From: a virus
DNA length: 31,641 nucleotides
Reading direction: 5' to 3' (one strand)
Virus record (IMG/VR): IMGVR_UViG_3300027962_000003
Location: 1-31,641 of that record
Below the pieces are notes generated by a model. That model saw only the letters and a program-made list of their open reading frames with translations. It did no database searches and was not told where the DNA came from. The translations under genes and the position numbers were made by a program. This document shows positions 8,213 to 31,275 of this stretch, one piece after another. Positions within the stretch are counted from its first letter, which is position 1. Every line of letters begins with the position of its first letter.

Positions 8213-10873
8213 CTATGTATTATACGGCTTGATCTGAACCGCGCCCTGTAACGCCGGATAAAGAACCGGCGTAGCAGTCAGCGCTGGAACAACGGTCACG
8301 GTATCGACGCAAAGTACGCCGTATCGTGGCGTTGTGGTTGCTACGTGATGTGTATGGAAGAGCTCTGCAGGGAGTCCTTGATGCTGCTGGATAATTGCGG
8401 GCTGTGCCAGTTGGTAGGTATGGAAGAGCTGCCCCGGCGTTGCCTGATGACGCTGTGTCACTCCGGGGAGCGCCAGCGCATGCGCATGTGTACATTCTGC
8501 CGGAGTGACAATATACGTAAGCACCACTCCGGGCGCAGCGACTGTGTGTGTATGGAGTAACGCTTCCGGATCAGCAATAATCGCTGTTCCGGTTCCAGCG
8601 GAGGCAAGCGTATGCGTATGTCCAATATCCACCGGGGCCGTCCGATGCACCTGTATAATCGCCGGACTGGTAACGGTCTGTCCGTGAAAGAGCGTTTCCG
8701 GAACGGCACTGATAGTCACCGTATAACCGGGCGCCTCAAGCGACTGTCCATGGAGCACCTCTGCCGGACTACTTATATGGGTCTGCGTAATACCAGGACT
8801 GGCAAGCGTCTGGTCCTGCAGTATCTCAGCCGGTGTGACTCTATAGGTTAGTGCCGTCTCTGGACTGGCAAGTGCCTGTGTATGCGTCAGCGCTTCGGGA
8901 GTTATCACATGCTGCTGCTGAATTCCCGGGCTGGCAAGCGTCTGTGCAAAAATGAGGTCTGCCGGAGTGCTGATATACGTCTGCTGAATCGTGGGGCTGG
9001 CGAGTGCATGGGAAGAGGCGATCTCCCCGGGCGTGCGAAGATACGTCTGTTGAATCGCCGGACTCTCAAGAGTATGCGCGTGGCTGCTTTGTGCCGGGGT
9101 CGCAAGATACGTCAGCCAAATAGTCGGACTGGCGACCGTATGCGTATGAGCAATTCCCGCCGGGGTCGATTGCGCAATGTGGACGCCTTCCACAACAACG
9201 GTCCCCGCAACCCAGGTCTCTGAGCTGGCTAACGTGAAAGAATCCGGATCGTCAGAGGCACTAATGGTAGTCCGATCCGCGATGGCTGCCTCGGTCGAAT
9301 TATCAGTCCCGCTGGCGCTGACAACGTACGTGAGGTTCCCGTATCCGGTTGGCGCGTCCGTAAAGTCAATACTATCGTTGCACGCAGCAGCGAAGGCCAG
9401 GAACAGGTTCTTGTCTGCCCCCCATTCGGCAGTCACACTCGGGGGATCCGGGGAGGACGTTGATGTATTGTAAGCCGTAGTGGCGATATCCACCGAATCC
9501 GTAAGAGAACCACCCCAACCTGATATCCGAACAACAATTGCGACAGCAGTCGTGGTAGTATCGGTCGTCAAGTCTACGGTCGTCCCACCTTCAGTGCCCT
9601 CCGCGACCATGGCATACATCCCCACCCGGGTACGACCGTTGTAAAGATAATCGGAGGAGAGCTGAGTCCAACCCGCAGGAGTGTTTTGTTGGTTATCCTT
9701 CGCAACACTCGAGAAGAGGACCAGCAGTAAATCACCGGCGTCTACCACCTCGGGAAGGGATACGGTATGTGAGGTTGTCGCCGAGGAAAACTGGTATGTC
9801 AGCCGATCCTGGATTGTGGGGAAAGCGGCGGTGTCCTCCTGTGTACTAGAGACGGTGTAGAAGGTAGCGGGGTCGGATTGGTTAGCATGCGTGGCTGATA
9901 TTTCGTCAGCGGATACCGGACGGGTGTATATCCGCACTTCATCCATCAGCCCGTTGAACCAATATTGATCTCCGAGATAGTCGCCGGATTGCCCGGAACC
10001 AATGCTGTAGGAGGATGCTCCGAATATGGCGGAAGACGCACCGTCGGAGGCTCCGTTTAGGAACACCTCCATAGCGTCATTCGAAAAGTCGTTTACTCCG
10101 GCAATGTGGTGCCAAGTATCGGTCGATAAGACCGTGTTCCCATATAGGGACTGCTCGGAATCGCTCGGCTGACTTCGGCCATACAGGTAGAGCTCTCCCG
10201 TATCTTCAGTGAGGAATCCTAACCCCCAACTCCCTCCATCAATGTGCGACTTCACCAGTAAATTGCGAGCAGAGACCGAGTTTATGTTGACCCACCCGGC
10301 TACGGTGATTCCAGACGCACCTTCAAGGGCCGGAGCAAGGTTGGTGAGGGATATCTCGTCGTCCGAACCGTCGAACTCCTGACCGGCTCCAACCTGTCCT
10401 TGTTGTCCGGTCGCTGAGATGTTATCTGTGCCGTGGTACCCGTTCCCTACTGAATTCGTGTACAGGTCGGCATTTCCGGTCCCCGCTGCCTCCTCCTGCA
10501 AGTGCCAGACACCGGCATATCCATTGGACCAGACCGCATTCCGTCCGTGGGGATCGGTGGGTGCATAGTCGTTGAGGGTCGTATCTCCGTAATAGAGCCG
10601 AATAACCGTGTTCGAGGTACTCGACAGTGTCCCAGTGTATTTAACATGCACTTCCCCGGTCTGCGCTCCGGTATCTACTGCCACGATTTCGCGTGGTAAC
10701 TCTGTTGTCCCGTCCGCCTTAAAGCACCGGAGTTCTCCTCCGGTTGCGGAGAGCCGATTCCAGAACGCGGTATCTGTAATTTGAGAGAGGTCTAAGTACA
10801 CCGGAAAATCGGTCAGATCCCCCGGAACCTGTGAGCTCTGGATCGTAAATGCAATATAGTATTGGTTGGCCAT
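8213..10873 (-). CDS. Large adsorption protein: DUF2341, LamG and HxH repeats
   Basis: An 886-aa protein. Residues 1-120 resemble DUF2341 (FPVYLDLSQ, VIRLYYGD). Residues about 120-335 form a LamG/concanavalin-like fold (GVWHLQE, WHHIAGV, LMDEVRIY) likely to bind sugars. Residues about 345-565 form a jelly-roll-like beta domain seen in phage tail proteins (DLLLVLFSS, GWTQLSS). Residues 569-854 are thirteen repeats of exactly 22 residues, described separately, followed by a 32-residue beta tail. It probably is a tail fibre or receptor-binding protein. The LamG and jelly-roll part seems richer in GC and differs in base use from the repeat part, suggesting a mosaic origin. AAGGG precedes the ATG weakly. 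Confidence 0.75.
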   Translation of the reverse strand: MANQYYIAFTIQSSQVPGDLTDFPVYLDLSQITDTAFWNRLSATGGELRCFKADGTTELPREIVAVDTGAQTGEVHVKYTGTLSSTSNTVIRLYYGDTTLNDYAPTDPHGRNAVWSNGYAGVWHLQEEAAGTGNADLYTNSVGNGYHGTDNISATGQQGQVGAGQEFDGSDDEISLTNLAPALEGASGITVAGWVNINSVSARNLLVKSHIDGGSWGLGFLTEDTGELYLYGRSQPSDSEQSLYGNTVLSTDTWHHIAGVNDFSNDAMEVFLNGASDGASSAIFGASSYSIGSGQSGDYLGDQYWFNGLMDEVRIYTRPVSADEISATHANQSDPATFYTVSSTQEDTAAFPTIQDRLTYQFSSATTSHTVSLPEVVDAGDLLLVLFSSVAKDNQQNTPAGWTQLSSDYLYNGRTRVGMYAMVAEGTEGGTTVDLTTDTTTTAVAIVVRISGWGGSLTDSVDIATTAYNTSTSSPDPPSVTAEWGADKNLFLAFAAACNDSIDFTDAPTGYGNLTYVVSASGTDNSTEAAIADRTTISASDDPDSFTLASSETWVAGTVVVEGVHIAQSTPAGIAHTHTVASPTIWLTYLATPAQSSHAHTLESPAIQQTYLRTPGEIASSHALASPTIQQTYISTPADLIFAQTLASPGIQQQHVITPEALTHTQALASPETALTYRVTPAEILQDQTLASPGITQTHISSPAEVLHGQSLEAPGYTVTISAVPETLFHGQTVTSPAIIQVHRTAPVDIGHTHTLASAGTGTAIIADPEALLHTHTVAAPGVVLTYIVTPAECTHAHALALPGVTQRHQATPGQLFHTYQLAQPAIIQQHQGLPAELFHTHHVATTTPRYGVLCVDTVTVVPALTATPVLYPALQGAVQIKPYNT
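8312..9169 (-). repeat. Thirteen tandem 66-bp repeats encoding 22-aa HxH units
   Basis: Each unit reads roughly TPAEhhHxHTLASPxIxQTY (residues 569-854 of the 886-aa protein), always 22 residues without indels. The metal-like pair at positions 8 and 10 is HxH in units 1, 2, 9, 10, 11 and 13, and becomes HxQ, QxQ, AxQ or HxY in others. At DNA level the units are diverged, so the periodicity is old and kept by selection. Confidence 0.85.
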
Positions 10874-10879
10874 CGCCCT

Positions 10880-11494
10880 TCACAGTGCGTTGAGCACTAA
10901 ACTACAATCATGCGCTTGAATTTCCCCGTTCGCGTCAACGTCTGCAAGTGTTTTCTGCCATGTGGTCCACTCCACCGAGCGCCCTAATACTCTGGCAAGA
11001 ATCTCCTGTGCATCTGCCAGCGTCACCGTACCATCTTGATTCACATCACCTGCAAGCCCGGATCGAACCGTAACGGTCCCGCCTTGGACTGGAAGCGCGG
11101 TAGTATCTGCATAAGCATAATCGAAGGTCAGTGTAGTCTCTCCCGGTGAGGTGAGTAGGACATCAAACCGAAGCGTAGCAAAGACCCCGGACCCCTGAAC
11201 GGCTTGCGTCCCTCCACCGGCGATCTTCAGTGTGTCTTGATCTTGGTGAAATCCAAACAACTCCCATCCGGTAATCCCCGCCCCCTGCTGGACCGTGTCG
11301 AGTTGGAGTGCTGATTGATCGTATCGAATCCCCGCTTCGAGTGCAATGCTCGAATCAATCCCGCTATACTGTACCTGCAGGAGAACAGACTGCTCGTCTA
11401 ACGTGAGCGTATGATTTGAGAGCGTCATCTCCTGTGAGACGAGGAACGGACAGGCAAAGAGCAGGAGCACAAATAAACTGAGAAGTTTTCGCAT
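10880..11494 (-). CDS. Secreted cohesin-dockerin protein in a phage tail-fibre cluster
   Basis: The 204-aa reading starts at an ATG with AAAGGGGA upstream; a longer frame from 11521 is not used. Residues 1-21 form a signal peptide (RKLLSLFVLLLFACPFLVS); an imperfect lipobox LFAC is present. Residues about 25-145 resemble a cohesin fold (ALEAGIRYDQSALQLDTVQ, GSGVFATLRFDVL). Residues 149-204 form a type I dockerin with two calcium loops: D150, N152, D154, D161 and D185, D187, N189, D196. In cellulosomes cohesins bind dockerins. Here one small protein carries both, so it could link to itself, to host scaffolds, or anchor the virion. The export signal is odd for a phage structural gene. Confidence 0.8.
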   Translation of the reverse strand: MRKLLSLFVLLLFACPFLVSQEMTLSNHTLTLDEQSVLLQVQYSGIDSSIALEAGIRYDQSALQLDTVQQGAGITGWELFGFHQDQDTLKIAGGGTQAVQGSGVFATLRFDVLLTSPGETTLTFDYAYADTTALPVQGGTVTVRSGLAGDVNQDGTVTLADAQEILARVLGRSVEWTTWQKTLADVDANGEIQAHDCSLVLNAL

Positions 11495-11504
11495 CGTTTC
11501 CCCT

Positions 11505-11822
11505 TTAGGTTGCACGGACACGCGCGGTAAGTGGAATCGTCCATGTGCCGATCAGATCCCCTCCGGCGTCTGCCGTAATTTTCGCTGTATAAATTGCACC
11601 CTCTGTTAACGCAAGCGCATCTTCTAATGTTGCGCGATAGACACCATTCGAGTCAGTCACGTAATTGAGCGTGAGCGGAAACGCTTGTCCGGAGACAGCA
11701 TCCCCCGCCTGATTAGTGAGCGTGACCGTTACCGTAGCATCGTTGATATACGAATCGTTTAGGGCATTTTGCAGCCCAGAGACCTCTAACAGATTATCAT
11801 TGCCGATATAAATCGCCTGCAT
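11505..11822 (-). CDS. Small Ig-like/beta-sandwich tail protein
   Basis: A 105-aa protein with alternating beta strands (ATVTVTLTNQAGDAVSG, GVYRATLEDALAL, YTAKITADAGG) in the pattern of an Ig-like or BppU-type fold used in phage baseplates and fibres. GGGGGTGT precedes the ATG. It lies between the small 159-aa protein and the cohesin-dockerin gene, and overlaps none. It probably is a structural adaptor in the adsorption apparatus. Confidence 0.6.
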   Translation of the reverse strand: MQAIYIGNDNLLEVSGLQNALNDSYINDATVTVTLTNQAGDAVSGQAFPLTLNYVTDSNGVYRATLEDALALTEGAIYTAKITADAGGDLIGTWTIPLTARVRAT

Positions 11823-12324: not shown

Positions 12325-12912
12325 CTACTGTGAGCGCACCTCATGGGAGAAATGTTCCCCTAAAGCTACGCCTTCTTTATAGGTTTGTGTTGTCCTTGGT
12401 GGTTCCTGTCGTTGCGAAGTAAAATGCTCTCCAATACCGACACCTTCCGTATAGAGTTTCTGTGTTGGTGCGGGAATGAGACTCTGGCTGAAATGCTCTC
12501 CGATGGATACACCCTCTGTATAGATATAGCGATAATACGGCGGTTCAACAACCTGTTTTGTGAAATGCTCCCCGGCACTGACCCCTTCGGTCCAGTCTGG
12601 AAGCGGAACCAAAACAAAGAGTTCCTGACTAAAATGCTCTCCTAGCTGTACCGCCTCTTTTGCAGCAAGCAGCTCCTGTACACCGGAAGGATCAAGGAAA
12701 TAATACGTCGTGCCTCCATAGGCAATCCGAATTGCCGGGAGTTCCGCATCCGCCTGTATCGACGTTAGGCGAATCGCGCCTATATCGGTACTCGCTGGAT
12801 GTTTCAAGCGGAGCGCCGGACCGGAAATTTCCGCAGCACGCCAGACCGGAACGCGCTGCGTCCCCTGCGGTGTTTGAATACTGAGGTATCCGATGAGCGT
12901 TGTCGTTGCCAT
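12325..12912 (-). CDS. GEHF-repeat tail protein
   Basis: A 195-aa protein whose stop-start junction with the tailspike gene is TAATG (12910-12914), so the start at 12912 is preferred to 12927. Residues 1-84 form a beta-rich domain. Residues 85-195 contain five repeats of 23-24 residues around EGVSIGEHFSQ. The conserved His and acidic residue in each repeat could support metal binding or trimer contacts. It probably is a fibre or adaptor of the adsorption apparatus. Confidence 0.7.
   Translation of the reverse strand: MATTTLIGYLSIQTPQGTQRVPVWRAAEISGPALRLKHPASTDIGAIRLTSIQADAELPAIRIAYGGTTYYFLDPSGVQELLAAKEAVQLGEHFSQELFVLVPLPDWTEGVSAGEHFTKQVVEPPYYRYIYTEGVSIGEHFSQSLIPAPTQKLYTEGVGIGEHFTSQRQEPPRTTQTYKEGVALGEHFSHEVRSQ
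12328..12660 (-). repeat. Five tandem repeats of about 72 bp (GEHF units)
   Basis: Units start at residues 85, 109, 133, 156 and 180 of the 195-aa protein, with conserved EGVxxGEHF. The linker between units is variable and proline-rich. The last unit is truncated. Confidence 0.75.
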
Positions 12913-15167
12913 TAATTTACAATCCACATTTGCCCGTCTTCCGGGCTGCTCGGATCACCTGATCGTACTTCAATCAGATTATTCAAGGTCATTGTCCCAA
13001 TCCCATCTCCATCATAATCGTATGAAATCGAACTGTTAATGCCGGGGAAGAGCTTCGCTCCTAACGTATCGTCTTTCGTATCATCGCCGGAAATACGGAC
13101 AGTTCCCCGGACTCGATCATGGTCAAGAGGCCAGAGATACCATGAATTGCCAGCATCCCGGACACAGAGGATTGCAGCCCCCTGTGAAATCCAGTTCCGA
13201 ATCCCTCCGGAGTTATATGATTGCAGATCCTCATTCCCCCATGCACATCGAAAATGAGGGTTCCCGTCAACAGCAAGAGAGGTATTATTGTCATTCACCT
13301 GTAAGATAAACCATTGCCCATCATGTCCGCCCTCAAACTGCGTAATCGTAGTTAATGTCGAGTTGTTCGTTCCATAGAGCCGTTCACCCGATGCAACGCT
13401 CGGGGTCGTATCCCCCTCAGCAAAGATCTCATAGGAATCATAGAGGTGTCTTTGCGTCTGCGGAACGTGGCAATGCCAATGTCCGGTATTATCTAAGACG
13501 GCATACACGAGATCTCCCGGCGTTCCTTTCCAGACATTTCCATCGAACCCGTGCAGATGGGTCTGTGTAAAATCAATCGAGGTGAATTCATCATTAATAA
13601 GAATCCAGATCGGATGTCCGGGGGTCCCTTCATCAAAATTCGTGATAGTAGTATTCGAGGTATTGACCGTTCGAAAATGACTCCCTCTGCCCACGCTTGG
13701 AGTACTATTATTGGCTGGATACAGCCCATTGAAATAAAATTCCCCGAGCTGGAGATGCGGTTTCGAAGTGTCAGCGGGGGCACCTGTCCCGGGATCAATG
13801 GTGTTTCCAACCATAACCGTCGTTGAGTCCAGATTTTCAATCCCGGAAATATATCCCCCCCAATTCTGAAACGAGTTGTTCGAGATGATCACATGATCGT
13901 TCGTAGCCGGTTCAACACGAATACCATGATAGCCCCCAAAATAATTTCCGCTCATTGTGAGATGTGAGAGCGTGGTTTCCCAAGCCTCACTGTACGTCGA
14001 TTCTTCGAGAGTTAACGCCCGACCATCTCCGTTCGCGACGGTATTGCCAAGAAACATCGTATAGGCTGCCCCGGAGATTTTCAGGGCTGGAGCGTATACG
14101 TGTGGATCTATGCCTGGTGTGTTGAAATAACACCCGATGATATTATTCAGTAAGGCCCCATCGATATGGCAGGCCACCGGATCACCGGCTTGAAAAGCCG
14201 TACTTCCATTTCCGGCAAAGTAGCAATTTTCAATCCGATAGAGCCGTCCACCGCGAAACCGTGCTGCTGGAGCCGGAGTCACGCCGTCTGTTCCCCCGTT
14301 CTCAAACCAGCATTGCGACATATGGATATCCCCTTTGGACGCGATATAGGCAGATTCTTTCCCGGCCCCGGTGAATCCGCAGCGATCAAAAATCCCTGGA
14401 AGTACGGTATGGGAGGCCCCTTCATTATCCCAAAACAGAGCATGTTCACAGAGGCTTACATCCGTATCCACTAAAACCGGCATATTGAGTACGGCCTCTC
14501 CCGATGCATCCTTCGTTGCATGGATGCCGTCTCCATGCCGTTGCGAATCCCCGCGCTTTTGGAGATAACAACCATACATATACATACGCTCTACATCACG
14601 GGTAATATGGAGCAGGTGGTTTGGTGCATCTTTGAACAGACACTCCCGGAAATACGCAACAGCCACTCCGCCAATATCAATGAGATTCCCGGAGCCAATC
14701 GTCTGGCTGCCCAGCACATGGATCCGGTCCAGTTGTACAATTTTTCGGAACCCATCATCGACATCACTGTGAATATTCAGAACGGTCTTGTTGGTAGGCA
14801 CATTGCGAGCATCAATTCGGACCTGCTGCCAGATCCCCGTCGCTGAAGGCTTCGCCATTGAGTGACTGATCAGTGAAATCGACCCCTCAATATCCAAGGT
14901 GTCACTGATGACGTAATCCCCCGGTGGAAAGTAGACTTCCCCTCCGCCAGCTTCCTTGATTGCATTAAAAGCCTTTTGTAATGCGTCGGTATCATCCGTC
15001 TGTGAATCCCCCTTCGCTCCAAAATCCCGCTGGACATCGATTGCTATTGAACTGCTTGCGTCAACCGCAAACGTATCAATTTGTGCCTGCAGATCTTCGA
15101 GGATCTTCCGGGTATACGGTCCTGTTTCCTCTGTTGCAATACCTAAATCCTGCCGTGAAAATGTCAT
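12912..15167 (-). CDS. Tailspike with pectate-lyase-like beta-helix
   Basis: A 751-aa protein. Residues 43-110 carry the Pectate_lyase_3 entry motif (DFGAKGDSQTDDTDAL, GGGEVYFPPGDY). A long right-handed beta-helix follows to about 480 with repeated short strands (SQCWFENGG, IENCYFAGNG, MSGNYFGGYHG, ISNNSFQNWG). Residues about 490-690 hold two related modules, each with TPSVxxG and TTIT followed by an IDFTQTH- or LAVDGNPH-like strand. It probably binds and cleaves a host surface polysaccharide, but catalytic residues cannot be assigned by eye. It is the largest gene after the tape measure in the tail cluster. Confidence 0.85.
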   Translation of the reverse strand: MTFSRQDLGIATEETGPYTRKILEDLQAQIDTFAVDASSSIAIDVQRDFGAKGDSQTDDTDALQKAFNAIKEAGGGEVYFPPGDYVISDTLDIEGSISLISHSMAKPSATGIWQQVRIDARNVPTNKTVLNIHSDVDDGFRKIVQLDRIHVLGSQTIGSGNLIDIGGVAVAYFRECLFKDAPNHLLHITRDVERMYMYGCYLQKRGDSQRHGDGIHATKDASGEAVLNMPVLVDTDVSLCEHALFWDNEGASHTVLPGIFDRCGFTGAGKESAYIASKGDIHMSQCWFENGGTDGVTPAPAARFRGGRLYRIENCYFAGNGSTAFQAGDPVACHIDGALLNNIIGCYFNTPGIDPHVYAPALKISGAAYTMFLGNTVANGDGRALTLEESTYSEAWETTLSHLTMSGNYFGGYHGIRVEPATNDHVIISNNSFQNWGGYISGIENLDSTTVMVGNTIDPGTGAPADTSKPHLQLGEFYFNGLYPANNSTPSVGRGSHFRTVNTSNTTITNFDEGTPGHPIWILINDEFTSIDFTQTHLHGFDGNVWKGTPGDLVYAVLDNTGHWHCHVPQTQRHLYDSYEIFAEGDTTPSVASGERLYGTNNSTLTTITQFEGGHDGQWFILQVNDNNTSLAVDGNPHFRCAWGNEDLQSYNSGGIRNWISQGAAILCVRDAGNSWYLWPLDHDRVRGTVRISGDDTKDDTLGAKLFPGINSSISYDYDGDGIGTMTLNNLIEVRSGDPSSPEDGQMWIVN

Positions 15168-16731: not shown

Positions 16732-18210
16732 CTATTCAGTAATATTGGGAATTGGTGGTCCATATACAACCTGTCGATCTTTCCGAATCCGAATAGTTGC
16801 CGTAGGAAAGGCATTAGATCGTCCAGATTCTCCGTATTGTACTGACTCAATAATGCCGCTTTTATGCGGAGCAAACCGGAATCGTGCTCCGACATACGGT
16901 AATGGTGGCGGGGTGCGGAGTTGATAGATAATATCCGGTGCAAGGAAGCGCGTTGCGGATTGAATCACCCGCTGTAAGATCACCGCGCGATAATATAAGT
17001 CCGGAAAACCGGTTTCATTGAGATAATCCGGCGGTTGTACTTCCGGTAACGCCTGATTGTAATAGGCATCATTAACCTCTAAAAATGGGAGGAGTGGGAA
17101 ATCAATATCCAACATGCGCGAAGCGCTCGGATTCCCCACGAGAATTGTGCAGAAATCTCCCTCGACATACTTTGCGCCTTTGTAGTACCGAATCCGTCCA
17201 TTCGCATCAAGATTCAATTCCCCGGGAAAAACCGTTATATATGCTAAAACATCTAAGAGTGCGAGCTCCCCGCGTTCATCCGGTGTGAGAAAGTCCTTCC
17301 ATGCCTTTAATAGCGGATCTAATCGACTTCTATTAAAGTCCACGCTCTGTAACATATCCCAACTCGGACGTGGCGTAAAGCGGATTCGGACCCCCTGATA
17401 CCGATAAGGGTTCGATTCAGGCGTAATCTGCGTTGCTTGCTCGGCACTTTCTAATAAGGGTAATTCCCCACCAGAGGTAATCGGTGTCCGTAAGGCGAAC
17501 GTAAATTGATTAAACTGCCGTTCGAAGGTATAGAACCCTCCCCATGCTAAGCAGAGCTGCCGGAGGAGTTCTTTCACTGTCATCTCTGTATGCGTTTTAA
17601 AAAACTCATCGGCATTAATATAGGTAAAAATATTCCCTGAACTGTTCCGATCAGGAACGTCGGAGAGATCCACGGGTACATGAATCCGCTGAAAGAGTGT
17701 ATCCGGACGTTGTGTCTCAAAACGCGCTGGCTGTAGCCGCTTCCGTTCACGCCTCTCGGCTATTAATAACTGCTGGTAAACATTATAATTATAGGTGTCC
17801 ATTCCGGAAACTAACGTCAGTTTGGCTGTATATTCCGGCTGACTAATTTGCAACGCTTCATATTTTTCCGGCGTCTTTGCCATAACTAAAATCCCCTGAA
17901 AAAGAAGCCCTGCCAAGGAGATCATTGCAGAGGACTGTGAGGTAAAGAGCCGCATTTCAATTTGCGTATATTGGTTCGATTGCCATTCATGGAGTGTTTG
18001 GAGAAACCGATCATCCTTATCGAAAATCTCAATCGTTGCTTTGTTCTCGATCATTGTATACGGCTCATCTTCCAGATTCTCTTGCAGCTTCCAGCCGACC
18101 ATATACTCGGTGACATCCTCCCAGTCTGCGGTCACTGCTGCACCGGACCGTGGTCGCCAGAAAAGAAAAACGGGTCCTAAGAGTGGTCGTTGTATTGTCG
18201 TAATGCCCAT
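16732..18210 (-). CDS. Tail hub or baseplate protein
   Basis: A 492-aa protein downstream of the tape measure, the usual place of distal-tail and tail-hub proteins. It has an N-terminal beta domain (WEDVTEYMVGWKLQ, NKATIEIFDKDDRFL) like hub proteins that carry a tail-tube-type fold. Its centre contains TVKELLRQLCLAWGGFYTF, and the C-terminal part reads DIIYQLRTPPPLPYVGARFRF. The stop of the tape measure and this start share TAATG. A peptidase-type tip activity is not visible. Confidence 0.65.
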   Translation of the reverse strand: MGITTIQRPLLGPVFLFWRPRSGAAVTADWEDVTEYMVGWKLQENLEDEPYTMIENKATIEIFDKDDRFLQTLHEWQSNQYTQIEMRLFTSQSSAMISLAGLLFQGILVMAKTPEKYEALQISQPEYTAKLTLVSGMDTYNYNVYQQLLIAERRERKRLQPARFETQRPDTLFQRIHVPVDLSDVPDRNSSGNIFTYINADEFFKTHTEMTVKELLRQLCLAWGGFYTFERQFNQFTFALRTPITSGGELPLLESAEQATQITPESNPYRYQGVRIRFTPRPSWDMLQSVDFNRSRLDPLLKAWKDFLTPDERGELALLDVLAYITVFPGELNLDANGRIRYYKGAKYVEGDFCTILVGNPSASRMLDIDFPLLPFLEVNDAYYNQALPEVQPPDYLNETGFPDLYYRAVILQRVIQSATRFLAPDIIYQLRTPPPLPYVGARFRFAPHKSGIIESVQYGESGRSNAFPTATIRIRKDRQVVYGPPIPNITE

Positions 18211-20645
18211 TAGCGGACCTGTGCATCGCGTTCTTCACGCGCGCGAATAAACCATTCAATAAACTCATCGGGTAAAAATTCGCCGTGAATTTCCACCCGA
18301 CTTTCATCTAACTTCTGTCCCAGATAGGCAAAGCCGGAGGACAGTTCCCGACGGACACTCTGCAGTCCGCCTCCCGGTTGCCGGTCAACGGTTTGCTGAA
18401 CCTGTCGAGCCAATGTCGCCGTAAAATCCCGGAAATCCGATGCCGGAGCAACAATCTCTGGTTCTAATCCTTCTCCGAGCATTGCCAGTGTCGGGCGACG
18501 GATAAAGCCCCCGTGTTGCAGTCCGACAAGCCGGAGCAGATTAATTAAGCCGACTCCCGGACCACCGGCAGCGAATCCCGCCGGAATATTCAATGCTTGC
18601 ATCACTTGTTTTAGAACAATCGCGCGCGTTACCATCATACCTAAATCAACTATCAACCCCTTGAAAATATCTCCGGCGTTCTGTCCTTCGACGGCGATTG
18701 CCCGGAACGCCCCCAGAATCCGATCTGTAAGGTAAAAGGCTCCTTGCGCTAAGCTCTGATTCAGCCCCTCTATTGATGTCTGTATATAACCGACCTGATC
18801 ATCAATTTGCTGTGCCCGTTTCCAAATTTCTTCCCATTGCCCTGTCTCGGGATTCCACCGGAGCTCCGTTGCGCCAATCTTGGTAATATCCTGTAACCGC
18901 AGGGCCGTATTACTAAGCTCCGCATTCGCCAGCCCGGTGTTCTCTGCTAAGCGCTTCGCACTCATATTGAGTCGCTGAACGCCATGAGCCCCCTTCGCCG
19001 GAGTCGGATCGGTTTGCGCTAATAACCCTAATTCTTTTCGGTATTGTGCAATCTCCTCTGTCAAGGTCTGAATACGTTGCTTGAGCCGTTGCTGTTCCGG
19101 GGTAAGTGCGCCGGTTGCTTCATTCCATCGTTCGGTCTCTGCTGAGACACGCTCATATTCTTCTCGAGCTTTCCGGAGCGCCGAGCGCGTTGAATTTAAC
19201 TGTTTCATGAGATCGAACCGCAGACTCTCACGTTGCGATTCCGTGAGCGCCTTCATAGCCTCTTCTGCCGTCTCTGCGTCCGTGCCCATTGAACGTAGCG
19301 CAGAAGAAAATCGCTTAGCGTCTTTTGCGCGCTTCTGAAACGCTAACCCCAATGTCCCTAAGACCGCGATTCCACCAACAATCAATCCGACCGGACCGAA
19401 CAGGCTGCCAAGTACCAAGGCAAGCCCTCCCAAGATACCAGTAATCGTTGTCACCGTTCCTAACAATCCGCCGGTAGCTTCGTTCATTGCATTGAATCCC
19501 TGTACCGCATCACTCACAATGCCGACCACTGCTTCTAATCCGGGGACCATCCCCTCTGCCATATTCATTGTCATTTCTTCAACCTGTGACCCCAGTAAGT
19601 CCAACCGTGCCCCCAAAGATTTGAGTTGATTGGCAGCAACTTCTTTCGTTGTTCCCGAAGCCTCTCGCAAATCTTTCTCGTATTGCCGGATGGCCTCAGA
19701 GGTCCCTAACAGCGGTAAGATGACCTGCTGTACTCGTGCCTGAAAGCCCAGCATGTCCAATGTGGCGGCTTTCTGTTCATCCGACATACTTGCGGTAATT
19801 CGCTCTAAATCCGCAACAATATCGGCAAAGTTGCGCATCCGTCCGGACGCATCAAACACGGAGAACCCGAGCTCTTCATGTGCCTCCGCATTTTCTACCG
19901 CTGATTTTGTGAGCAGCCGAATAATCCGGGAGAGTCCAGAACCGGCACGTTGCGCTTTCACTCCCTGATCAGCCATTGCAGCTAAGACCGCGACACCTTC
20001 TTCCATATCTTTATTAAAGGCTTTCAGTGACGCCCCGGCCTGCGTTGTAAGTGCGGTTGAAAACTGCTCAACACTGGCATTCGCTATGGTGTTCGCTTTC
20101 ACAAGAACATCAGTGACATGCGTGAGATTCCGGAGATTCTGTGTTGCACCCTGCGCTTTTAATCCTAAGGCACTTTGCGCATCGGTCGCAAGATCTGTCG
20201 CCGTTGCCATATCAAACATCCCGGCTTGCGCAAATTGCGCGACCTGTGGAAGCGCTTGGATTGATTGTTGTGCATCTAATCCGGCGGAGGCCAGAAAGAA
20301 GTACGATTCAGCTGCCTGCTCTGCCGATATTCGCGTTGACGTTGCGACCTCACGTGCGGTCTGCGCCATATCTTCCCGCATCGACTCTCCCACGTCACCC
20401 ATAATTGCCAGCGATTGTGTCATTTCATCTTCAAAGCGAATCAATGAACTGACACCTTTACCGACCATGAGTGCGGAAAGTCCGGCAACCGCCGTCCCCA
20501 TAATCCCTGCCATCCGCTTAAAGGACCGCATCTTGGCAATGGCTCCTGCCATCCCGCTTTGAAAGGTTGCTGCATCAGAGTGAATACGGACTGCCAGTTC
20601 GCGGGTGACAAATCCGCCTCCACTTCCACCGCTGATTCCAAACAT
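18210..20645 (-). CDS. Tape measure protein
   Basis: An 811-aa TIGR01760-like tape measure protein that sets tail length and occupies the tail lumen. It has an N-terminal helix-rich Gly/Ala region (GVSSLIRFEDEMTQSLAIMG, STRISAEQAAESYFFLASAG), a hydrophobic segment at about residues 390-440 (TGILGGLALVLGSLFGPVGL) that may insert in the host membrane, and long coiled-coil regions (SALRKAREEYERVSAETERW). At about 0.15 nm per residue the tail would be roughly 120 nm long. It follows the tail chaperones with a TAATG junction. A peptidase domain is not evident. Confidence 0.9.
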   Translation of the reverse strand: MFGISGGSGGGFVTRELAVRIHSDAATFQSGMAGAIAKMRSFKRMAGIMGTAVAGLSALMVGKGVSSLIRFEDEMTQSLAIMGDVGESMREDMAQTAREVATSTRISAEQAAESYFFLASAGLDAQQSIQALPQVAQFAQAGMFDMATATDLATDAQSALGLKAQGATQNLRNLTHVTDVLVKANTIANASVEQFSTALTTQAGASLKAFNKDMEEGVAVLAAMADQGVKAQRAGSGLSRIIRLLTKSAVENAEAHEELGFSVFDASGRMRNFADIVADLERITASMSDEQKAATLDMLGFQARVQQVILPLLGTSEAIRQYEKDLREASGTTKEVAANQLKSLGARLDLLGSQVEEMTMNMAEGMVPGLEAVVGIVSDAVQGFNAMNEATGGLLGTVTTITGILGGLALVLGSLFGPVGLIVGGIAVLGTLGLAFQKRAKDAKRFSSALRSMGTDAETAEEAMKALTESQRESLRFDLMKQLNSTRSALRKAREEYERVSAETERWNEATGALTPEQQRLKQRIQTLTEEIAQYRKELGLLAQTDPTPAKGAHGVQRLNMSAKRLAENTGLANAELSNTALRLQDITKIGATELRWNPETGQWEEIWKRAQQIDDQVGYIQTSIEGLNQSLAQGAFYLTDRILGAFRAIAVEGQNAGDIFKGLIVDLGMMVTRAIVLKQVMQALNIPAGFAAGGPGVGLINLLRLVGLQHGGFIRRPTLAMLGEGLEPEIVAPASDFRDFTATLARQVQQTVDRQPGGGLQSVRRELSSGFAYLGQKLDESRVEIHGEFLPDEFIEWFIRAREERDAQVR

Positions 20646-25510: not shown

Positions 25511-26545
25511 TTATGGTGTATCGGAATAAACGACGATACCGAGCGTCCCATTATAATCCGGCATGAGGCGGAGTGTGACTGCAGAAAAGACCTTATAATC
25601 CGTCACAAACCCTCCCTGCGAATCCCACTCAACCGGCTGAATATCTGATGCCTGATCAACGGCAATTTGCTCCGGAGACATATACACCATCACAACCTCA
25701 TCATCAGAGATCCCGGACATCGTTGAGTTGTTCAACCGATGTGCAACCTTGACATCATTGATGCCGTTGATTGCCAGAATCCGCTGCCGATAGGTTCGCT
25801 CCGAATATTGCTTATAGTCGTTTTCCAGAACATCTGAATAGTTCGAGGGCACGTACACATTATACGGTCCCTGCTCCGGAAACCCCATTCCGACCATCTC
25901 TTTCTTCATCTGAATGACGTCCTCAACCGGGTCCCGGTTCGTCGCATCATTCCACCCATCCGTTAGCGATCCCGTCACAACATTCGTATGGTTCATTATG
26001 CCGGAGATCGAGTTCCCATTAAGGGTGATACTGGAATCACCGTAGAGAAAGAGATCCTCAATGGATTCCGACACTTTCCGCGTTGCCAGTGCAACCATCC
26101 GCGTATCTAGTGTGGTTGCCCCCCCACCGGCGGAGGCCTGCAGCTGTCGCCACGGCAGATCGAAATCCATGTGCGTGATCGGAATCGGCACAGCGTTCAG
26201 TCCGAAATCAATGCCCTGATTCTCTCCGCGCTCCAACCCCATCATATCGCGTTGGGCATCTCCAATATCAGATACATCCTGCCATTCCGAAAGCAAGATG
26301 CCAATATTGTTAATCGGATTGAGAATTCCCGGAGTATTCCGGAGATCCTGTGCAACGACCAAGTTCTGACGCACGATGGTTTTCACCGTGCTGTCCAGTT
26401 GCTTCCACTGATCTTTTTGCAGCGTGTCATACGTCCGTAATGCCCTGCCGACATCACCCTCCGCTTCCATGATCCGCATAGCCATCTGACCACGAATCAT
26501 CTCGCGGGGAGACGAACGCTGCACTCGATAATTCTTTCCATCCAT
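25511..26545 (-). CDS. Major capsid protein (HK97 fold, encapsulin-like)
   Basis: A 344-aa protein with clean start (AGGAG, spacing about seven) after the decoration-like gene. Segments consistent with the HK97 fold in encapsulin-type capsid proteins are GMNHT-type turns, SVESIEDLFLYGDSSITL-like E-loop/P-domain motif (SESIEDLFLYGD) and DVVMVYMSPEQIAVDQASDI in the C-terminal half. It is expected to be the most abundant late protein. It follows the protease/scaffold in the usual order and is followed by a strong hairpin. Confidence 0.85.
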   Translation of the reverse strand: MDGKNYRVQRSSPREMIRGQMAMRIMEAEGDVGRALRTYDTLQKDQWKQLDSTVKTIVRQNLVVAQDLRNTPGILNPINNIGILLSEWQDVSDIGDAQRDMMGLERGENQGIDFGLNAVPIPITHMDFDLPWRQLQASAGGGATTLDTRMVALATRKVSESIEDLFLYGDSSITLNGNSISGIMNHTNVVTGSLTDGWNDATNRDPVEDVIQMKKEMVGMGFPEQGPYNVYVPSNYSDVLENDYKQYSERTYRQRILAINGINDVKVAHRLNNSTMSGISDDEVVMVYMSPEQIAVDQASDIQPVEWDSQGGFVTDYKVFSAVTLRLMPDYNGTLGIVVYSDTP

Positions 26546-26592
26546 AGTTCGCTCCTACGTTTCGTTTCGATTCTTACTCATGGTGATGCCGA

Positions 26593-27108
26593 TTACGCTG
26601 CACGGCATACAATTCTGACCGGATTCGAGCCGCCACTATTATCGACCGTTTCCATGGCATAGGCTTTTACCACGCCATCCATGATCGTATAGCTTGCCGA
26701 CCCACTCTCATCCACCGCCTGTCCTGAGTGGATCTGAAACGATCCGTCATCATGGAATTCCAGCGGTGTTTCCAGTGCAGTTACGTTTTCACCATCTGCC
26801 AGCCACCCATAAAAAAGGATGCCGGTCGGCAGATAGATCGACCGGACAAGCTCATTGGCAGCGATCTGCCCGTCAGCATCAGTCCAATCAGTCAACACAA
26901 GGACGGTGGGATCAATACCGTCAACCCCGCCGAGCGCGACACGAAGCGGTTGCGCGGCTCCCAGCGTTGATACATTCTGGACATCTGCTGATCCACCCGG
27001 CTCAATACAGGCTCCCGGTCGGATAATCTCACTTGCCTGCTCATCACTCTGGATGAGATACCCTTGCACTGCACCGGGAGATTTAATAATCCTACGAGTA
27101 TTCGTCAT
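26593..27108 (-). CDS. Head decoration or minor capsid protein (171 aa)
   Basis: A 171-aa beta-rich protein between the protease/scaffold and the capsid gene, with GPGACIEPGGSADVQN-like turns, RVALGGVDGIDPTVLVLTDW and a Ser-rich end. Decoration proteins and DUF2190-type capsid proteins occur in this position. AAGGGAG precedes the start. No enzymatic motif. Confidence 0.6.
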   Translation of the reverse strand: MTNTRRIIKSPGAVQGYLIQSDEQASEIIRPGACIEPGGSADVQNVSTLGAAQPLRVALGGVDGIDPTVLVLTDWTDADGQIAANELVRSIYLPTGILFYGWLADGENVTALETPLEFHDDGSFQIHSGQAVDESGSASYTIMDGVVKAYAMETVDNSGGSNPVRIVCRAA

Positions 27109-27169
27109 GGTTCTGCTCCCTTGCTTCCGTTAACACTCTGTTCACTTTCCCCTTGTTTCCCTGTGCAGC

Positions 27170-27718
27170 TTAGTCTTGTTCGCCGTTTTCGCGTTCAGCG
27201 CCGTAGGTCTGCAAACTTCCCGGACCATCATGCTCCTGCTGTGTCTCTTTCGGACCACTCCGCCGATACGACGGCACAGGCTTCTCAACTCGCGTCTTGA
27301 GTGTCTTGAGCGTCTCAAGATTGTACTGCTCAACTTCTGCAGTCTCAAATCCGTGCTTATCGACCAGCGTTTTCCGGAGCTGTTTCGCCTCTTCCTCCGC
27401 TTCCTGCTGCTGCGCCTCATACGCCTTAAGCGCCCGTTCTGCTTTCTCGAAATCGAACTGCTGCAGGTGCTCCGCTGTCGCCTTATCTACTTCCACTGTC
27501 ACCTTGTCCTCGACTGGCACCGCCTCTTTCCCGTCCACCTTGTTCTGAGTGGATTTCTCCGGAGTCTGCGTGGCGTTCTCTGGGTCGTCTTCAAGATAGT
27601 ACGCCCGAAACGCCACGAGCTCCTTACAATCGCGGTCGTTCAGCTGCTCTGTAGACAGCCCAAGATCCTCTACTTGAGCTAACTGATCAATCGTTTTTTG
27701 CCGTTCCTTCTCATCCAT
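27170..27718 (-). CDS. Nested in-frame scaffold protein (internal start)
   Basis: The ATG at 27716-27718 within the DUF2213 gene starts MDEKERQKTIDQLAQVEDL and has AAGGGAG about eight bases upstream. This matches the lambda C/Nu3 plan in which the scaffold is made separately in frame. The product would be 182 residues of mainly charged helix. The arrangement is seen in sequence; expression is inferred. Confidence 0.65.
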   Translation of the reverse strand: MDEKERQKTIDQLAQVEDLGLSTEQLNDRDCKELVAFRAYYLEDDPENATQTPEKSTQNKVDGKEAVPVEDKVTVEVDKATAEHLQQFDFEKAERALKAYEAQQQEAEEEAKQLRKTLVDKHGFETAEVEQYNLETLKTLKTRVEKPVPSYRRSGPKETQQEHDGPGSLQTYGAERENGEQD

Positions 27719-28792
27719 CTTGATCTCTCCCTTGTTTCCGTTAAATAGTTCCTGTAAACTGATTCCGGCTTGATGCAATCCCCGAAGCATCGCCTGTGCA
27801 AAGGATTCTGCCGTCTGGCGCTCTGTCTCAAACTCCCGATCAAACTCCTCCCGAAGTAAGCGCCGCGCCATACCGGTTGCACTGTTGATCGTAGACTCTG
27901 AGACACCCTCCATCCGGGGCGCAAGACGAATCACCGCATCCAAGGCCCCCTCATTGAGCCGCAATGTCCGGGGATTCACTACGGGGAGTGCAATCAGATC
28001 ATTTACACTGTTCGATTCCGTCTCTCCTAACAACGTTTTCTGCGCAATCCATGATTTCATGTTTGCCGACATTCCGCTAACAGTTGACGGCTTGCCCTCT
28101 TCCGGAGGGGTTGTCCCGGTCTGATCATAGTACGCATCAATGAAGGTCGAAAGCGACTTACTGACAGAGCTCCAATCCGTTGATTCCGTCCCGGAATAAT
28201 GCGGTGTGCGCGCCGAAGAAAGGACATGTACATTTAATTGACAGCCATCCTGTTGACTACATGCACCATCCGCATCTAAGAGTACCGCGATATGATCCGG
28301 AATGAGATCAGATTGCACCAAATCATATTCCTGCCCGTGATGCTCCCCAGATTTCTGGAATTCCCGGGCTAAATACCCGACTGAAACAGAAGCGTTTTTC
28401 CCGGCCTCAAAGTGTGGAATAACAGCGTCATCAACAGCATTCGTTCGCTCAATATCTAACCACATCTCATGCACAAGAAACTGTCCATCATACTGCACAT
28501 GGCGGTTTTGTCCAATTACATACTGCTGCCGAATCTCCGGCGAGGAGTTTACTAACACATAGGTCTCGCCATTATGGGGATGGTCTAACGTTACCTCCGT
28601 TCCCTCCCAATATGGAACAGAGTTCACGAGCTCTGATTCCGGAAGATATGCCGGAGCGGGGTTGTTCGCTCCTCTTAAAACCATCGATTTCAGAGACTTC
28701 GCCGGAATCACCAGATACTCACGCCCGTTCCATTTCTCCCGGCGTGTTTCTCCGGTCGTTAACAGAACTGAATACTGAAATAAGGGGTTCAT
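27170..28792 (-). CDS. DUF2213 prohead protease/scaffold protein
   Basis: A 540-aa protein. Residues 1-200 match the DUF2213 pattern (YLVIPAKSLKSMVLRGAN, GTEVTLDHPHNGE, ASVSVGYLAREFQKSG, DLIPDHIAVLLD), a phage capsid maturation domain, probably a protease. Residues 280-345 form a linker with a HAQ-like helix, and residues 358-540 are a charged scaffold-like helical region (DFEKAERALKAYEAQQQEAE) ending in a disordered C-terminus. An internal in-frame ATG with AGGGAG at 27718 probably yields the scaffold alone. It follows the Mu F-like gene. Confidence 0.8.
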   Translation of the reverse strand: MNPLFQYSVLLTTGETRREKWNGREYLVIPAKSLKSMVLRGANNPAPAYLPESELVNSVPYWEGTEVTLDHPHNGETYVLVNSSPEIRQQYVIGQNRHVQYDGQFLVHEMWLDIERTNAVDDAVIPHFEAGKNASVSVGYLAREFQKSGEHHGQEYDLVQSDLIPDHIAVLLDADGACSQQDGCQLNVHVLSSARTPHYSGTESTDWSSVSKSLSTFIDAYYDQTGTTPPEEGKPSTVSGMSANMKSWIAQKTLLGETESNSVNDLIALPVVNPRTLRLNEGALDAVIRLAPRMEGVSESTINSATGMARRLLREEFDREFETERQTAESFAQAMLRGLHQAGISLQELFNGNKGEIKMDEKERQKTIDQLAQVEDLGLSTEQLNDRDCKELVAFRAYYLEDDPENATQTPEKSTQNKVDGKEAVPVEDKVTVEVDKATAEHLQQFDFEKAERALKAYEAQQQEAEEEAKQLRKTLVDKHGFETAEVEQYNLETLKTLKTRVEKPVPSYRRSGPKETQQEHDGPGSLQTYGAERENGEQD

Positions 28793-28801
28793 AGGCGCCT
28801 T

Positions 28802-28816
28802 AATTCCTTTGGAATT
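28802..28816 (-). promoter_or_regulatory. Hairpin next to the DUF2213 ribosome site
   Basis: AATTCC (28802-28807) and GGAATT (28811-28816) form a short stem with a three-base loop. It directly precedes AAGG and nine bases later the ATG, so it may affect ribosome access. The 111-bp spacer (28793-28903) otherwise holds AT-rich sequence without a gene. Confidence 0.3.
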
Positions 28817-28903
28817 GACGGCGGATTAATGAAAAACAGCACCGATATGATTTGCAAATAAGATATTGAAAGGGAATTCAGGACGCAAGAAAAGAATTTA
28901 AGC

Positions 28904-29860
28904 CTAAAGAACTAAGTCTAACCGCATAAGGATCTTATCTAATGTTCCCTTTGGTAAGAAATCTTGGTGCTCATCAAAGGACGGCAGCCAAATACACCGA
29001 CACATCGGATGCAGGGGAATCGTTCCACGCGCCTCTTTTATTGTCACTGCAACGCCCTCCCAACCGAGACAAATCGGACAGACGCGCTCATCAGAGGCGG
29101 TGGAGAACTCGGCAAAGTTTGTAACCTTCTGGACTCCGGCAGCCTCATAGGTCGTTAACGACGCCTCCGCATGTGCACGAGTAATTTCTGTCCGGACGAT
29201 AGTAAGCGACCGCCGGAGCCCGACCTTATCAACCCGGTCATTGATTGCTCCGGCGAGATTGCGCGCCATCTGTCGGGGAGTCTGATGCTCTGCATAGCCT
29301 TGCACTAACGTATCGCGCGTCTTGCGAGCCGCCTGTGATACCGTCGCGTCTTGAACTGTTTTTAACCGGTCGTAGTGCTGAATACTCAATTCCCGCACGG
29401 TCCGAGCAAAATGCGGATGCCGGATTAATTCATGTGCAGAGGTGGCGAGGTTTTGTACTCCGGCACGGCGGAGAGCATTGAGCGCTGAATCCATCCCCTT
29501 AATAACTGCCCCCTGCACTAAAGGCTTTTGCCATGTATAGAGTGGGTCTTGTGTCGCCGCACGCGGAGAGACACCGCCGACTTCCTCTGCAACAACCTGT
29601 CGAAACCAGACCGCGAACTCATCGGAAAGCTGCTCCACGTTCCCGAAAGTGAAGGTTTCTGCGGGGGAGGCGTGAATATGAAGCGGACGATGCTTTTCCG
29701 GATCAGCTAATTCAGCAGCATCATTTTCAATAAAGGTCGTATTGACTAAGCCCTTTACCCGACGCCAGCGCCTTCGAAACTGCCCCCGATAGGATTGACG
29801 CAGCTTCCCGGTGCGGGTCGGATCAGCACGCGGAACTGTCTTATGAATTGCTAACGTCAT
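28904..29860 (-). CDS. Head morphogenesis protein (Mu F / SPP1 gp7-like)
   Basis: A 318-aa protein with the C-terminal Mu F-like signature: helix with RKTRDTLVQGYAEHQTPRQM, IVRTEITRAHAEAS, then ERVCPICLGWEG and PLHPMCRCIW (a zinc-like CxxC and CxC pair) near the end. Mu F-like proteins sit in or at the portal vertex and assist head assembly. Its start overlaps the portal stop as ATGA (29857-29860). Confidence 0.85.
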   Translation of the reverse strand: MTLAIHKTVPRADPTRTGKLRQSYRGQFRRRWRRVKGLVNTTFIENDAAELADPEKHRPLHIHASPAETFTFGNVEQLSDEFAVWFRQVVAEEVGGVSPRAATQDPLYTWQKPLVQGAVIKGMDSALNALRRAGVQNLATSAHELIRHPHFARTVRELSIQHYDRLKTVQDATVSQAARKTRDTLVQGYAEHQTPRQMARNLAGAINDRVDKVGLRRSLTIVRTEITRAHAEASLTTYEAAGVQKVTNFAEFSTASDERVCPICLGWEGVAVTIKEARGTIPLHPMCRCIWLPSFDEHQDFLPKGTLDKILMRLDLVL

Positions 29861-31275
29861 TCAACCGCACCATTCTCCCGGGCAATCTGCTGTAATCCCC
29901 GAAGAAGCTGCATCACTGTGACCGGCTTCTCATCCGTTCGAGCAAGGATCTGTTCTGCCATCACTTCATCCTCATCAATCATCTGCTCTAAGATATTGGT
30001 CGCTAAGCGCTCCGTCTCTGGTTCCGCGCTCCACCCGAAAATTTCTGTCCGGGCTTCTGCCTCATCCAAGAGATCCGGAATTGGTGTCGGAGAGAGGTTC
30101 TTTAACGCAGCCGTCAACGTCTGTGCGATTTCTGCCTGCTCTTTCTCTGACATCTCAAACAAGGGAGGCCATTCTGCCGTAATCCGGTTCCGAGGCGCCT
30201 CCAATATTCCGAGCCAAATTAAGCGATTTGTCAAGGCACGCAATATCCGGGGAAAGGCGTGTTTCTCCTGACGCATGGACATTTCACCATAGAGTGTAGC
30301 CGCATCCATCGAAGAAGCTAAATCACCGCGCTCCGATCCAGTTAAGAGCCGCTTCGGATACCCCTTCGCTCCGGCGATATTTTGCAGAATAATATCATAC
30401 GTCTCTTTCGGAGAACGAATATCCGAATCAATCGTATGGGGGGTAACTCCCTGCACCAAGGAATACTCTTTCATCTCATGCTGAAACTCTTCTAACTCTT
30501 GTTTCAGCGCGTCCTCATCCTCAACCTCAGCATCTGCATCGACGTTAAAAAGTACCCGGCGAAGGGCAGCCTTCATATAAATCTCCGGCGCAGCACCGGA
30601 AACTTTATAGAGATCCAAGAGGTCGTTATAAATCGCACGAAGACGAGGTGTCCCGTAAACCTCATCTTCCTCTAAATCCTCTGCAACATGGATTACGCGC
30701 GTCCAATGGACCTGCTGCTTCCGGTGTGCTTTATTGAATGCCTCATCCGAGGACATCTCAATCTCATACATCTCCGGACGCCCATAGCGCTCGGAGCGCA
30801 CATCAGTATCATATGAGAGAATTGTCACACTTCCCTCATGAAACGGAGAAAAATACAGGAGATCCTGCGGATCACTCAGCGCATTTTCTGTTAACGGTTC
30901 TGCTAAAGAATCGGACTCCGAGCGCAGCCCTAAGAGTAGCACACCGAAGCGTCCGATACCCGAAATCCGATCAATCCGCTCGAGATAATGGAATACGGCG
31001 AGCTGATCGTTATCGATAATCTGCTGCCATCCCTGTAAAAATGGCGTCTCTTCCTCATCACCATCCCGGAGAATCGGCTGTTCTTTCCACGTTAAACTCG
31101 CCGGGAGTGTGACCAGTCGGCGTGCCAGCCCCTTCCGATCATACATCTGATAGAAATGATCAAAGGTTAGCTTCTCCGGATACCCGAAAATCTTATTATA
31201 ATCACGCTTCCCTCCCAAGAGCCCTAAATATCCGGCGAGATAATAGCGATAGACAAGATCCGATTGGAATGTCAT
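29857..31275 (-). CDS. Portal protein (DUF1073-like)
   Basis: A 472-aa protein with the DUF1073 N-terminal pattern (DLVYRYYLAGYLGLLGGKRD, YDRKGLARRLVTLPASLTW) and the central FGVLLLGLRSESD and MKAALRRVLFNVDAD regions. Portals form the dodecameric ring for DNA entry and exit. AGGAGG precedes the start; the leader upstream is the duplicated element 31335-31518. It begins the head operon, with no terminase gene directly upstream on the same strand. Confidence 0.8.
   Translation of the reverse strand: MTFQSDLVYRYYLAGYLGLLGGKRDYNKIFGYPEKLTFDHFYQMYDRKGLARRLVTLPASLTWKEQPILRDGDEEETPFLQGWQQIIDNDQLAVFHYLERIDRISGIGRFGVLLLGLRSESDSLAEPLTENALSDPQDLLYFSPFHEGSVTILSYDTDVRSERYGRPEMYEIEMSSDEAFNKAHRKQQVHWTRVIHVAEDLEEDEVYGTPRLRAIYNDLLDLYKVSGAAPEIYMKAALRRVLFNVDADAEVEDEDALKQELEEFQHEMKEYSLVQGVTPHTIDSDIRSPKETYDIILQNIAGAKGYPKRLLTGSERGDLASSMDAATLYGEMSMRQEKHAFPRILRALTNRLIWLGILEAPRNRITAEWPPLFEMSEKEQAEIAQTLTAALKNLSPTPIPDLLDEAEARTEIFGWSAEPETERLATNILEQMIDEDEVMAEQILARTDEKPVTVMQLLRGLQQIARENGAVE

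Follow-up and report, generated by a model that had tools for sequence, protein, structure and literature searches.

Gene and operon

The window, that is the whole stretch of DNA analysed here (31,641 nucleotides, IMG/VR record IMGVR_UViG_3300027962_000003), is a linear virus contig of 31.6 kb. Its minus strand carries an intact open reading frame of 204 amino acids, from the ATG at 11494 to the TGA stop at 10882-10880. Based on profile searches, a structural model, an SD-like sequence and the tight spacing of the genes, this gene codes for a signal-type N-terminus followed by a cohesin and a type I dockerin. The preliminary description had placed it at 10880-11494, which is exact, and the strand is minus, as it is for all the surrounding genes. 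The plus-strand reading of 10880-11494 was rejected, as stops occur throughout.

The ATG lies 10 bases past the stop of an upstream gene of 105 amino acids, and the SD-like AAAGGGGA, immediately 5' of the 204-aa gene, overlaps this stop. On the other side, the ATG of an 886-aa gene is found 6 nt past the stop of the 204-aa gene. The GC and GC3 contents (0.53/0.53) do not stand out from those of the other phage genes. The SD-like site, the gaps of 10 and 6 bases and the base composition, which is like that of the neighbours, show that the gene is an integral member of the operon, in which it is probably translationally coupled. Promoter and terminator scans at the gene gave chance numbers only, and no promoter of its own scored better than chance.

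The gene had been described as lying between tail-fibre genes, and this is right in substance: a pectate-lyase-type tail spike is encoded upstream and a LamG protein downstream. The 105-aa upstream neighbour (11505..11822, minus strand) has a weak Ig-like match in Pfam, below the cut-off, and two small ORFs separate it from the tail spike. A motif of the type EGVxxGEHFxxx is repeated four to five times in a 200-aa ORF at positions 12325-12927 of the window. The tail spike itself (12912..15167, minus strand) is a pectate-lyase-like beta-helix recognised by PF12708 and by PHROG tail spike families. The downstream protein of 886 amino acids (8213..10873, minus strand) combines a LamG/ConA-like domain (PF13385, 74.7 bits) with long repeats, and lacks a signal peptide. 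It is a probable fibre or adhesin, and Pfam gave no match above cut-off to cohesin or dockerin in it. Its repeats include a run of about ten of the type TPA..(H/Q)T.xLASP, with no match in isolated phages.

The operon also contains the gene of a tape measure protein (18210..20645, minus strand; phrog_1533, E 2e-65), which identifies it as a tail module. A head module (25511..31275, minus strand) comprises major capsid, protease-like, Mu F-like and portal genes, assigned with PHROGs and, for the capsid and the portal, also through relatives in isolated phages. The portal and capsid are distantly related (28-35%) to those of haloarchaeal and Brevundimonas phages, and SNF2 helicase and primase genes are present as well. 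The contig is a real tailed phage. It is probably partial, since no terminase or endolysin was recognised in the record.

Dockerin and cohesin domains

The preliminary description had announced a cohesin and a dockerin in this protein, and the Pfam search detected both over their curated cut-offs. The type I dockerin occupies residues 148-204 (10883..11053, minus strand) and matches Dockerin_1 (PF00404) with 38.6 bits, against a cut-off of 22.9 (E 1.3e-9, or 4e-12 when the record alone was searched). The match spans positions 1-56 of the 57 of the profile. Two complete calcium loops of the form D-x-[DN]-x-[DN]-G-x6-D are found at residues 150-161 and 185-196, and the loop residues that had been named (D150/N152/D154/D161 and D185/D187/N189/D196) are all present in the translation, which together with the profile score supports the identity of this half. 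The solved dockerin 2ccl_B matches the protein with an E value of 5e-5, and the closest solved sequences are the dockerins of xylanase Y and scaffoldin B. In the structural model, helices are formed by residues 159-169, 178-184 and 194-203 with a pLDDT of about 81-92; fold searches with the model are dominated by the cohesin half. An EF-hand in place of the dockerin was rejected (13.1 bits, below the EF-hand cut-off). No further dockerin over threshold was found in the record besides that of the 204-aa protein.

The cohesin domain covers about residues 22-147 (11054..11431, minus strand), with a Pfam core at residues 36-132 that matches PF00963 with 29.2 bits, against a curated cut-off of 24.1 (E 1.2e-6). 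A model from the single sequence was poor (pLDDT 50). AlphaFold2 gave a model with a pLDDT of 83 and a pTM of 0.67 from an alignment of seven sequences, A1, whose six sequences besides the 204-aa protein, remote cohesins or cohesin-dockerin proteins from other loci, are Pfam-type cohesins or were picked as such and may bias the model toward the cohesin fold. The Pfam score of the cohesin is independent of this bias. Inspection of A1 for a conserved stretch that could be used for scanning yielded none.

In Foldseek, the model matches 2xdh best (E 2e-8); this entry is the non-cellulosomal cohesin of Archaeoglobus fulgidus, and cellulosomal cohesins come next. In the structure alignment (VIA), the top 41 matches are all cohesins, with Z scores from 14.8 to 12.0, and the nearest other folds are CLIPPER (Z 11.4) and pilins (Z 10.9). 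The cohesin assignment thus stands on the profile score over its cut-off and on the cohesin jelly-roll fold of the model. The protein has one cohesin and no CBM or anchor, and no second dockerin over threshold was found in the record. It does not qualify as a cellulosome component, for which a scaffoldin with several cohesins and a CBM or anchor, as well as glycoside hydrolases that bear dockerins, would be expected.

Putative export signal

The N-terminus MRKLLSLFVLLLFACPFLVSQ (residues 1-21; 11432..11494, minus strand) consists of MRK, 16 hydrophobic residues and a small residue, with a hydropathy maximum of 2.69. The export signal that had been claimed is supported on inspection of the sequence, with its positive start, hydrophobic stretch and small residue, and by eye it looks like a typical Sec leader. 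The leader would be cleaved near the junction of LVS and QEM. The confidence of the model is low over these residues, as expected for a leader. No canonical lipobox, anchor or C-terminal membrane segment was detected in the 204-aa sequence; the mature protein should hence be soluble, and attachment to a surface would be possible by docking alone. Judged from the sequence, this Sec-type N-terminus is best read as a sign that the protein acts outside the cell, and not within a virion under assembly.

Relatives in other viruses

Searches of viral, phage and plasmid collections gave no close homologue of the 204-aa protein; among the plasmids there was one weak match. A protein-pattern search of viral contigs with the 204-aa gene, the capsid and the portal returned no close relatives. 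In tblastn searches of isolated phages, the protein had no match and a dockerin consensus had a single weak one. In a genome scan, the matches were for the most part to dockerins, in unrelated bacteria and archaea. An alignment-based search gave 50 viral records with related portals (31-43% identity), none of which has a dockerin over cut-off or a cohesin match. The gene therefore seems to have been gained by this lineage alone.

Dockerin-like sequences are nevertheless recurrent in viral contigs. A DNA pattern of two dockerin loops occurs in more than 200 stretches of viral contigs among the matches listed. A stricter protein motif located the double loop in no fewer than 156 viral loci, where lysins, tail tips and small exported proteins bear it. 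This number counts motifs rather than Pfam matches, and one family of short membrane proteins accounts for about 30 of the loci. Cohesins are rarer: of 100 viral records with dockerin-like motifs that were searched, 5 have a cohesin over cut-off and 95 have none, so that a cognate pair within a single phage is exceptional.

Two of the five cohesin-positive records are convincing phage cases. In the 63.9-kb record IMGVR_UViG_3300017963_000283 (G037), terminase, portal, protease and capsid genes are followed by a tape measure and tail genes, and then by an exported ORF of 103 amino acids, a dockerin protein that is likewise exported (47 bits) and an overlapping cohesin ORF (32 bits), after which come DUF5675 and a GTA-type holin. 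The dockerin and cohesin ORFs may be joined by a frameshift fusion. G037 also has an ORF that is 38% identical to the 105-aa neighbour of the 204-aa gene, and BLASTP could not align the cohesins of the two phages. The second case is a prophage (G140), in which two exported cohesin proteins (227 and 348 amino acids) come after a portal-to-holin module, followed by a long peptidase-like protein with a terminal dockerin and by a 1508-aa multi-cohesin protein, before serine recombinases. This cohesin/dockerin region corresponds to L335:14590-19900 and L336:1-6345.

Records G045 (L210) and G029 (L211) were rejected as phage cases: they contain cohesins and look like host or mixed DNA. In L211, a ParA gene and genes for secreted proteins with LamG, LRR and cohesin domains lie in between the tail genes and the tape measure. 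L339, the one dockerin match from a scan with the alignment A3, looks like host DNA and is without a cohesin.

These results bear on the possibility, raised in the preliminary description, that the gene is a chance insertion in a single genome. It is half borne out at the level of the sequence, where the gene has no close homologue and both domains are missing from the 50 portal relatives. It does not hold for the architecture, which recurs: cohesin and dockerin genes end the tail/holin module in two unrelated phages.

Dockerins on other phage proteins

The dockerins of other viral contigs are found on several types of protein. A GH25 lysozyme (76 bits) with a terminal dockerin (43 bits) is encoded at L213:515-1522 (Pfam). 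Lysin-like proteins that end in a dockerin are seen in L213, L216, L137, L016, L102, L044, L076, L074 and L228; the assignment comes from Pfam for L213 and L228, and from inspection of the sequence for the amidase- and NlpC-like proteins. Such lysins may be tethered to host surface scaffolds by their dockerins. A large leaderless protein directly after the tape measure, at L215:1483-3399, has a C-terminal dockerin (42 bits), and further large proteins of this kind are found in L239, L221, L231, L108 and L115. A virion tip that bears a dockerin, of the L215 type, is plausible.

Siphophage tail appendage-like proteins with a C-terminal dockerin-like double loop occur at L126:4423-5505 and in L105 and L201. 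That of L126 is a clostridial-type tail appendage (phrog_6779, tail), whose dockerin is recognised by motif. Small exported proteins with a dockerin only are encoded after the tail module in L237 and beside a similar phosphoesterase ORF in L160, with weak Pfam support for both (18.8 bits for L237). A recurrent family of short membrane proteins (L019, L028, L090, L130, L173 and about 25 more; 93-145 aa) has one membrane segment, a Lys/Ala-rich tail and the dockerin-like double loop LDVNNDGKVDAADAKAAVQN. Papain-like proteins of about 290-425 aa (C10-like by eye) with a C-terminal dockerin are found in L030, L043, L084, L085, L124 and L151.

Possible role of the protein

An extracellular or surface-acting role is likely. 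We give about an even chance to a more precise proposal, namely that the protein is a host-derived, Sec-exported adaptor which acts outside the cell through cohesin-dockerin docking, to partners of the host or to its own copies. The phage would have acquired a minimal, one-cohesin "mini-scaffoldin" from a cellular organism and would produce it late, together with the tail proteins. The protein would be exported by Sec, lose its leader and fold outside the cell with calcium as a soluble protein. Its dockerin would then dock into a cohesin, while its own cohesin would offer a site to another dockerin protein. The partner could be a cohesin/dockerin system of the host surface, which the phage protein would extend or cap, or further copies of the protein itself, which would form chains. 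Candidate benefits are the masking of the infected cell from other phages, the tethering of debris or progeny, and the occupation of docking sites of the host.

This proposal is supported by the two domains over their cut-offs, the cohesin fold, the export-type N-terminus and the tail operon context. The unrelated G037 and G140 also have this pair of domains behind their tail genes, small exported dockerin-only proteins (L237, L160) exist in other viral contigs, and a non-cellulosomal pair, Archaeoglobus ORF2376/ORF2375, can bind strongly (PMC9705933), all of which argue in the same direction. What argues against it is that 95 of the 100 motif records are without a cohesin and that the 50 portal-related phages contain no homologue.

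The foremost of the alternatives, which we regard as unlikely, is that the protein is a component of the virion or of its fibres, where the pair would join fibre proteins or hook the virion onto host surface complexes. In this case the hydrophobic N-terminus would be a segment that acts on membranes, or the protein would attach to virions once the cell has lysed. The position of a 204-aa gene between fibre genes in a tight operon is consistent with this, as are the leaderless proteins with a C-terminal dockerin in other contigs (that of L215 after the tape measure, and the tail appendage of L126, by motif). However, a classical leader would take the protein out of the cytoplasm, where tails assemble. 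Moreover, no partner is visible among the virion genes of the contig, since the flanking LamG protein has no cohesin or dockerin above cut-off. It is quite improbable that the gene is instead host-derived cargo (a "moron", as in lysogenic conversion), coding for a surface protein that serves the infected or lysogenic cell and takes no part in virus assembly or competition. The exported cohesin and dockerin proteins of prophage G140, between holin and recombinases, would fit cargo, and so would the cell-like architecture, the relatives among bacterial and archaeal surface proteins, and the portal relatives that lack the gene. Against cargo, the window ORFs that were tested included no recognisable integrase or repressor, and the gene is embedded in a late operon with no better-than-chance promoter of its own.

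That a functionless sequence was recently inserted into the tail cluster is very unlikely: at the sequence level the gene is known from one genome only, but its ORF is intact, all the calcium ligands are kept, and the SD-like site, the short gaps and the neighbour-like GC and GC3 are those of an operon member. Hardly any weight can be given to an assembly artefact that would have fused host DNA with phage DNA. IMG/VR contigs are metagenomic, and other "viral" matches (L339, L210) do look like host DNA, whereas here the gene is flanked to either side by phage genes, all in a single co-directional operon that leaves almost no space between genes.

A broader claim, which we consider doubtful, is that cohesin-dockerin docking serves phages with a variety of hosts as a common means of extracellular attachment. 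It would comprise exported adaptors like the present one, which polymerise with themselves or cap host structures, endolysins kept at the host surface by a dockerin tag, and tails whose dockerin tips catch on surface scaffolds. A virus with an exported, complete adaptor, along with the uncultivated phages in which lysins, tail tips and small exported proteins bear dockerins, would mean that phages exploit or jam the surface scaffolds of cellulosome-bearing or ANME-like hosts. Docking would also give access to the way phages and hosts recognise each other in anaerobic communities from which no phages have been cultured. The docking idea is directly testable, because each half of the protein can be expressed alone.

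Comparison with known systems

Cohesin and dockerin act as a "molecular Velcro" with which some bacteria and archaea build surface complexes, and few non-covalent interactions between proteins are known to be as strong as their docking. To our knowledge, it has been regarded so far as a cellular device. Adaptor scaffoldins combine a cohesin and a dockerin in a single polypeptide. The 204-aa protein shares this layout, and the cohesin fold, with the adaptor scaffoldins of cellulosomes; unlike cellulosomal scaffoldins, it has a single cohesin and no carbohydrate-binding module, SLH or sortase anchor. No dockerin-bearing enzymes were seen in the window.

Non-cellulosomal cohesins and dockerins are known in archaea and bacteria (cited in PMC9012536). 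The adjacent native pair ORF2376/ORF2375 of Archaeoglobus binds strongly (PMC9705933). Like ORF2375/ORF2376 of A. fulgidus (2xdh), the phage protein has a single cohesin and a dockerin outside a cellulosome. In Archaeoglobus, however, the two domains are in adjacent cellular genes, whereas here both are in one small protein of a viral tail operon. ANME archaea have proteins with a dockerin and one or more cohesins, which were proposed to organise the outer cell layer (PMC9012536). They resemble the phage protein in that both domains are on one protein, and differ in that they are cellular and larger, have several cohesins and lack a viral context.

Viral docking modules like these seem to be almost undescribed. 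Gene 40 of the Vibrio phage VvAW1, the one published phage dockerin-like gene that we found mentioned in the open-licence literature, is dockerin-like by BLASTP similarity and of possible bacterial origin (PMC3558961). It differs from the present gene in that its description mentions no cohesin and does not discuss its function beyond the possible origin. A mention of the E. coli phage HSE2 was discarded, as it concerns a carbohydrate-binding module (PMC5967307). The present case therefore brings known domains into an undescribed setting, that of a probably exported cohesin-dockerin protein in a phage tail operon. G037 is similar in that it encodes an exported dockerin and a cohesin between tail genes and holin, and shares the 105-aa neighbour gene; it differs in having two overlapping ORFs in place of the single 204-aa protein, and a larger genome.
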